Position numbers and translations under genes: made by a program. 40,079 nt of DNA from NCBI GenBank assembly GCA_029287435.1, contig JARFRD010000025.1, positions 1 to 40,079 of the forward strand, given 5' to 3'. The DNA comes from Gammaproteobacteria bacterium. Lineage in GTDB: Bacteria > Pseudomonadota > Gammaproteobacteria > SZUA-229. Of this stretch, positions 7,482 to 40,079 are shown piece by piece (position 1 is the first letter of the stretch; the number at the start of each line of letters is the position of its first letter). Under the pieces are notes generated by a model. That model worked only from the letters and a program-made list of their open reading frames with translations, was not told the DNA's origin and made no database searches.

Positions 7482-9692
7482 TTAAACGGGCTGCAGGTTG
7501 GCATAAGCCATAACCAGCCATTTTGTTCCGGCATATTCAAAGTTCACCTGTACCCGGGCATGCGCACCGCTACCCTCGACATTTAGCACGGTACCCTCAC
7601 CAAACTTGGCATGCATTACACGCATGCCAACACCAACACCATTAACCGGAGCAGCAGCTGTGGCCTGCGGCTGATAAACCGGCTGTGATACCGACGGCTT
7701 CGATCGTATTTCATTGAGCAAGTGTTCGGGGATTTCGCTGATAAAGCGTGATGGTGTAGGGTACATGTCCTGGCCATAGAGCCTGCGATGCTCAGCGGAT
7801 GTTAATACCAGCTGCTGTCTTGCACGCGTTATGCCGACGTAACAAAGCCTGCGTTCTTCCTCGAGTTTGCCTTCCTCGTCCAGTGAGCGCTGGCTCGGAA
7901 ATAAACCTTCTTCAAGACCAACAATGAAAACCAGCGGGAACTCGAGTCCTTTCGCACTGTGCAAGGTCATCAACTGTATGCAGTCTTCCCATTCCTTCGC
8001 CTGGCCTTCACCCGCTTCCAGTGCCGCATGCGTGAGGAATGCGGTGAGCTTGGCCATACCCGTGTACTCATCGCTATCTGCATCATAATCAAAACCACGC
8101 GCTGCTGTGACCAGTTCCTCGATGTTTTCCACGCGTGCTTCGGCTTTTTCTGACTTTTCTTTACTGTAATGCTCGATAAGACCACTGGCATGGATTACAT
8201 GTTCTACCTGTTCAAACAGGTCGAGCTCGGCTGAATCTTCTGACAAGCTATCAATCAGGCGTACAAAACCTGCTATCGCATTGGTTGCGCGTGCAGCGAG
8301 TTCCTTGCGATCAAGCAATGTGCGCGCGGCTTCCCACATCGAATAATTTTTCTGCTTCGCGACTTCGCGTATCTTTTCAACGCTGCGATCGCCTATGCCA
8401 CGCGTTGGCGTATTTACAACACGCTCAAACGAGGCATCATCGTTTCGGTTATCAATCAGGCGCAGGTAAGCGAGCGCATCTTTAATCTCGGCACGTTCGA
8501 AGAATCGCAAACCACCATAAACACGGTAAGGTATACCTTCACTGACCAGGCGCTCCTCGAATACACGTGACTGCGCGTTAGAGCGATACAGTATCGCGAT
8601 TTCCGAACGCGCATGGCCATTCTCAATCCACTGTTTCGCACGGTCGATGGCAAAGCGTGCTTCATCAAGCTCATTGAACGCGTTGTAAAAAAGTATCTGT
8701 TCGCCATCTTCGCCACTGGTCCAGAGCTTTTTACCCATGCGATCACTGTTGTGATCGATTAACGCATTCGCCGCGGAAAGGATGGTCGTTGTGGAACGGT
8801 AGTTTTGCTCCAATCGTACCAGCTCTGCATCTTTGAAATGTTTCTGGAACAGCTGAATGTTTTCAACGCGCGCACCACGCCAGGCATAAATCGCCTGGTC
8901 ATCATCGCCCACACTAAAGACTTTATTGTTGTTACCTGCGAGTAAACGAATCAATGCATTCTGTATAGTATTAGTATCCTGGAACACATGGACCAGCAGG
9001 TGTTTAAAGCGACTCTGATAATGCTCAAGCAGCGACTGGTTATCGCGCAATAATTCAAGTGTACGCAGCAGCAATTCAGCGAAGTCGATAACACCTGCGC
9101 GCTTGCAGGCTTCTTCGTAGGCCGTATAGATTCTTACCAGCTGCGTATAGATCGGGTTGCTTGAGGTGTCTACGTGCTGCGGTCTTTGACCTTCATCTTT
9201 ACGCGCGTTGATGAAGCCTTGTGCCTGTCGCGGCGGCCAGCGTGATTCATCAAGTTCCAGCGCCTTGAGCACACGTCTGATCAGGCGGTATTGATCATCA
9301 GAATCCAGTATCTGAAAGGTCTGAGGCAGACCGGCTTCTTTCCAGTGTGCGCGTAACAACCGATGTGACAGGCCATGGAAGGTGCCGACCCACATACCCG
9401 AAACGGGCATGCCCTGCAGTTTCTCAACACGGCCACGCATTTCTGCTGCCGCCTTGTTGGTAAAGGTCACGGCAAAGATATTGTAGGGCGATACGCCCTC
9501 GACCTGGCATAACCATGCAATACGATGCACCAGCACTCGCGTCTTGCCGCTGCCGGCGCCGGCCAGTACCAGCATATGCCCGGGTGGTGCGGTTACGGCT
9601 TCACGTTGTGCCTCGTTGAGGCCATCGAGAATATGCGAAACATCTGCATTTGCTGCTTCTTCGAAAGCCATATCAACGAGGTCATTACTCAT
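7482..9692 (-). CDS. uvrD: UvrD/PcrA-type superfamily 1 DNA helicase with altered Walker B motif
   Basis: Motif I AGAGSGKTRVL, Ia TFTNKAAAEM, III VGDDDQAIYAWRGA, IV EQNYRST, V TLHSAKGLEF, VI YVGITRARQ; C-terminal domain present; motif II reads HVFQDTN. Confidence 0.93.
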   Translation of the reverse strand: MSNDLVDMAFEEAANADVSHILDGLNEAQREAVTAPPGHMLVLAGAGSGKTRVLVHRIAWLCQVEGVSPYNIFAVTFTNKAAAEMRGRVEKLQGMPVSGMWVGTFHGLSHRLLRAHWKEAGLPQTFQILDSDDQYRLIRRVLKALELDESRWPPRQAQGFINARKDEGQRPQHVDTSSNPIYTQLVRIYTAYEEACKRAGVIDFAELLLRTLELLRDNQSLLEHYQSRFKHLLVHVFQDTNTIQNALIRLLAGNNNKVFSVGDDDQAIYAWRGARVENIQLFQKHFKDAELVRLEQNYRSTTTILSAANALIDHNSDRMGKKLWTSGEDGEQILFYNAFNELDEARFAIDRAKQWIENGHARSEIAILYRSNAQSRVFEERLVSEGIPYRVYGGLRFFERAEIKDALAYLRLIDNRNDDASFERVVNTPTRGIGDRSVEKIREVAKQKNYSMWEAARTLLDRKELAARATNAIAGFVRLIDSLSEDSAELDLFEQVEHVIHASGLIEHYSKEKSEKAEARVENIEELVTAARGFDYDADSDEYTGMAKLTAFLTHAALEAGEGQAKEWEDCIQLMTLHSAKGLEFPLVFIVGLEEGLFPSQRSLDEEGKLEEERRLCYVGITRARQQLVLTSAEHRRLYGQDMYPTPSRFISEIPEHLLNEIRSKPSVSQPVYQPQATAAAPVNGVGVGMRVMHAKFGEGTVLNVEGSGAHARVQVNFEYAGTKWLVMAYANLQPV

Positions 9693-38381: not shown

Positions 38382-40079
<1,698 letters not shown>

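Follow-up and report, generated by a model that had tools for sequence, protein, structure and literature searches.

The window analysed here, a stretch of 40,079 nucleotides that forms one whole contig of a MAG (218 contigs, 77% complete, 4.5% estimated contamination), carries at 7482..9692 on the minus strand an ordinary uvrD from the chromosome of a gammaproteobacterium that is represented here by this one MAG. In the sequence as given, codons 235-236 (8985..8990, minus strand) read CAT GTG and place His-Val where motif II (Walker B) of the helicase has Asp-Glu. Judged by sequence comparison, this His-Val most likely does not exist in the organism, and we find no support for treating the gene as a notable helicase variant. 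A short stretch of the consensus (about 8914-8990) is quite probably wrong through a base-call or assembly error. In our best reading, a wrong consensus ranks above a very recent real inactivation, with a conserved pseudo-ATPase as the least likely explanation.

The uvrD gene and its motif II

The gene encodes DNA helicase II at full length (736 aa, including the C-terminal tudor domain) in an ORF that is open end to end with no frameshift, and the local gene order is ubiE-ubiJ-ubiB-uvrD. The protein scored 1195 bits against the family model NF008743 (cut-off 965), its best-scoring family among the UvrD, PcrA and Rep models was UvrD, and the Pfam domains UvrD-helicase, UvrD_C and PcrA_UvrD_tudor were all found in it. 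With TIGR01075 the score of 1139 was narrowly under the cut-off of 1144; damage was rejected as the cause, since two sister proteins that are intact likewise score below the cut-off. E. coli UvrD (2is1) could be aligned over the full length (E=1e-278), with motifs I, Ia, III, IV, V and VI present in the window protein. The claim of the first-pass annotation that these motifs and the C-terminal domain are intact over the 736 aa was thus borne out by the 2is1 alignment and by Pfam, and the six motifs contain zero private residues in comparison with the 104 relatives described below.

In the same alignment, the motif II Asp-Glu of 2is1 lies opposite H235-V236. His235 is encoded by CAT at 8990-8988 and Val236 by GTG at 8987-8985 of the minus strand, the surrounding stretch of the 736-aa ORF reads FKHLLVHVFQDTNTIQNALIRLLAGNNNKVFSVGDDDQAIYAWRGA, and translation over the two codons gives LLVHVFQDTNTIQ. 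The Asp-Glu pair that a UvrD requires at motif II is therefore replaced by HV in the window as given, and the coordinates and reading originally reported for this substitution were right.

Comparison with related genomes

As relatives we used 104 distinct related loci, translated, from the same genus, family and class and from the GTDB species set. Asp and Glu occupy the two positions in 104/104 of these UvrD relatives, five same-genus genomes included. Sister genomes with an intact pair had been set in advance by the first-pass annotation as counting against its reading, and all five same-genus species proved to have one, with GAT/GAC and GAG/GAA at the two codons. These closest genomes belong to other species, whose proteins are 83-89% identical to the window UvrD, so a species-specific change is possible.

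A degenerate DNA search for HVFQDTN over 369 genomes of the class returned the window only (0/368 other genomes), whereas DEFQDTN was detected in 326 of the same 369. A viral origin of the motif was considered and rejected: the 17 exact matches to its DNA in IMG/VR, close to the chance expectation by a rough estimate, include none in a helicase frame.

A genus-wide loss of uvrD, which incomplete copies in two genomes (G001 and G002) might suggest, was also rejected, since the G001 copy is split at 100-N runs and the G002 copy is truncated by a contig end. G001 is a same-genus single-contig genome in which codons 1-46 and 63-736 of uvrD (L280 and L281) lie ~44 kb apart on opposite strands, and a run of 100 N terminates each part. 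The genome is near-identical to CP070838.1 (in L035) and is presented as one chromosome, in which this arrangement looks like the result of wrong scaffold joins. A separate observation concerns a MAG record titled Klebsiella pneumoniae (L088, CAMCBU010000008.1): over the motif II-III stretch its UvrD nearly matches the one from a Nevskiaceae MAG (L086), and the title is therefore probably a misnomer.

A cluster of four private transversions

Six residues in the 736 aa of the window UvrD are absent from all 104 relatives, and four of them (D235H, E236V, Y245N and S260) fall within codons 235-260, with two elsewhere. Codon 245 (8958..8960, minus strand) is AAT and gives Asn in place of an invariant Tyr (104/104; TAT in four of the five same-genus species and TAC in the fifth), the altered first base of TAT>AAT being at 8960. 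Codon 260 (8913..8915, minus strand) is AGT and gives Ser, where only Val, Ile or Ala occurs in the relatives (V43 I32 A29 of 104) and the five same-genus species have ATC/ATT; the base altered in this I/V/A260S change (ATT/ATC>AGT) is at 8914. Relative to the codons of the nearest relatives, each residue corresponds to one transversion (G>C, A>T, T>A and T>G), and two of the four changes, Y245N and S260, affect non-catalytic conserved positions. From the private-residue scan and the same-genus codons, we delimited a 77-nt stretch (8914..8990, minus strand) as a suspected consensus error. The change at the catalytic pair that had drawn attention to this gene is real in the sequence, but the pair makes up only half of a wider cluster, which had been overlooked.

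In post hoc calculations, the location of three of the four broken invariant columns of UvrD within 11 residues had a P of about 0.003 by permutation, that of four of the six private residues within 26 aa a P of about 0.002, and four random changes within 77 of 2211 nt, if independent, a P of about 2e-4. The fourth broken invariant column is Q690M, near the C-terminus. Codon 690 (7623-7625) reads ATG there versus CAG in 5/5 same-genus relatives, a difference of two adjacent transversions that may be real or a further error.

The altered base of Y245N also completes a perfect 8-bp palindrome, AATGCATT, at 8953-8960, either by coincidence or perhaps through a quasi-palindrome effect. Direct and inverted repeats in the vicinity gave matches no longer than chance and were rejected as templates for the changes.

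Constraint elsewhere in the gene, window and genome

Outside the cluster, the window UvrD departs from the relatives at a single invariant column. As a baseline, 26 relatives were each taken as focal in turn and counted for broken invariant columns, which gave 0-5 per relative with a median of 1. The gene thus bears no mark of long relaxed selection, and a real loss could only be very recent. UvrA, UvrB, MutS and MutL of the same genome (MutS and MutL being cut by contig ends) break 1/810 invariant columns, by a mild L>I. No erroneous stretch was found in the about 2800 aa of these four proteins, and the assembly is therefore not generally error-ridden. In the other conserved genes of the window, private changes were scattered and for the most part mild, and radical ones formed no cluster like that in uvrD. 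As for gyrB (38382-40028), its N-terminal part is missing and its ORF reaches the contig end, by which it is probably cut.

A second uvrD or rep with an intact DExx, for which the first-pass annotation had recommended a search, was not found in the 77% complete MAG. The only candidate for a second intact UvrD was rejected, the sole other DEFQDTN in the genome belonging to a 1162-aa RecB-like protein. Most family members carry a Rep-like protein (about 40% identity), and Rep may be missing from the MAG through incompleteness. With no other UvrD or Rep found, a dead UvrD would leave the cell without any.

A probable local consensus error and its alternatives

The changes are private, clustered and all transversions, and they lie in a fragmented draft MAG whose uvrD is otherwise intact, as are the partner repair genes; that their cause is an error and not a mutation is what we infer. 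A short base-call or assembly error at about 8914-8990 would make four residues private, the Walker B Asp-Glu pair among them. In that case the cell's own enzyme would be an ordinary SF1A helicase of 3'-5' polarity, with the motif II Asp binding Mg2+ and the Glu serving as catalytic base. Three options had been raised at the outset, namely an ATPase-dead helicase kept by the cell, a recent inactivation and a local error. The last fits best because the cluster to which the pair belongs also touches non-catalytic conserved positions, while the proposed non-catalytic role found no support. Counting against an error are the open full-length ORF, the lack of any such cluster in the neighbouring genes, the clean UvrA, UvrB, MutS and MutL, and the fact that the relatives are other species.

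The main rival, which we consider unlikely, is a real and very recent inactivation, whereby a clustered multi-base mutation in the sampled population would have killed the UvrD ATPase and left a mutator, excision-repair-deficient strain. The altered motif II residues are indeed those that bind Mg2+ and act as catalytic base, the remainder of uvrD is still conserved, as a recent loss predicts, and natural mutators that have lost mismatch-repair function do occur. One change would suffice for this, however, and four non-silent transversions in 77 nt need a special mutational event; no nearby template for them was found, UvrA, UvrB, MutS and MutL look intact, and the MAG offered no compensating Rep or second UvrD. 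In E. coli, cells that have lost Rep as well as UvrD are inviable when growing rapidly (PMC5389703). A consensus that is mixed or chimeric, with reads from another strain or organism merged into the stretch, would be in keeping with the contamination estimate of the bin (4.5%), but the altered bases occur in none of the relatives and a second uvrD is not in the bin, and we regard such a mixture as very improbable.

It is likewise hard to believe that a full-length, motorless UvrD has been retained for binding DNA, MutL, UvrB or RNA polymerase. The ORF is full length with its DNA-binding and C-terminal parts intact, and inactivated SF1 domains exist in AddB and RecC (PMC4824097). Yet His-Val is confined to one genome among 369 of the class, motif I and all the other ATPase motifs are kept without erosion, it is not obvious what Y245N and S260 would do in a protein of this kind, and Walker B-dead PcrA is toxic even alongside the wild type (PMC8318588). 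There is a very slight chance that this is a natural full-length UvrD that has lost both Walker B acidic residues and is kept to bind DNA without acting as a motor, in a lineage where no other UvrD or Rep was found.

If true, such a protein would be a striking case of a natural housekeeping helicase without its ATPase pair. When a catalytic-pair change is seen in a single MAG, we advise looking for private transversions nearby and for intact sister copies before proposing a pseudo-enzyme, and we suggest masking 8914-8990 in alignments that use the window uvrD.

Comparison with known systems

The Asp of motif II binds Mg2+. Its Glu is the catalytic base in this NTPase class, and PcrA/UvrD changed at this Glu binds DNA and ATP with no ATP hydrolysis, the mutant being dominant-negative and toxic, with severe growth defects (PMC8318588). 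Because such mutants bind without hydrolysis and are dominant-negative, a real His-Val enzyme would be expected to be inert or harmful. The passages of PMC8318588 on laboratory Walker B mutants name PcrA E224Q and cite Brosh and Matson 1995. The window protein resembles these mutants in having the catalytic Glu replaced in an otherwise complete helicase; they are engineered, however, whereas in the window the Asp, the Glu and further conserved residues are changed.

RecC and AddB, which contain inactivated SF1 helicase domains, would share with the window protein, if its sequence is right, an SF1 fold without a working ATPase. They differ in that most or all of their motifs are missing, their inactivation is conserved across species and they are complexed with an active motor (PMC4824097), none of which applies to the window UvrD. 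Only motif II and its surroundings differ there, and the change recurs in 0/104 relatives and 0/368 other class genomes; the motif erosion and conservation expected of a pseudo-ATPase of this type are both missing. The protein matches UvrD itself (NF008743, TIGR01075, 2is1) in its full-length alignment, its motifs other than II and its tudor domain, and departs from it in reading HV and not DE at motif II, with Y245N and S260 alongside.
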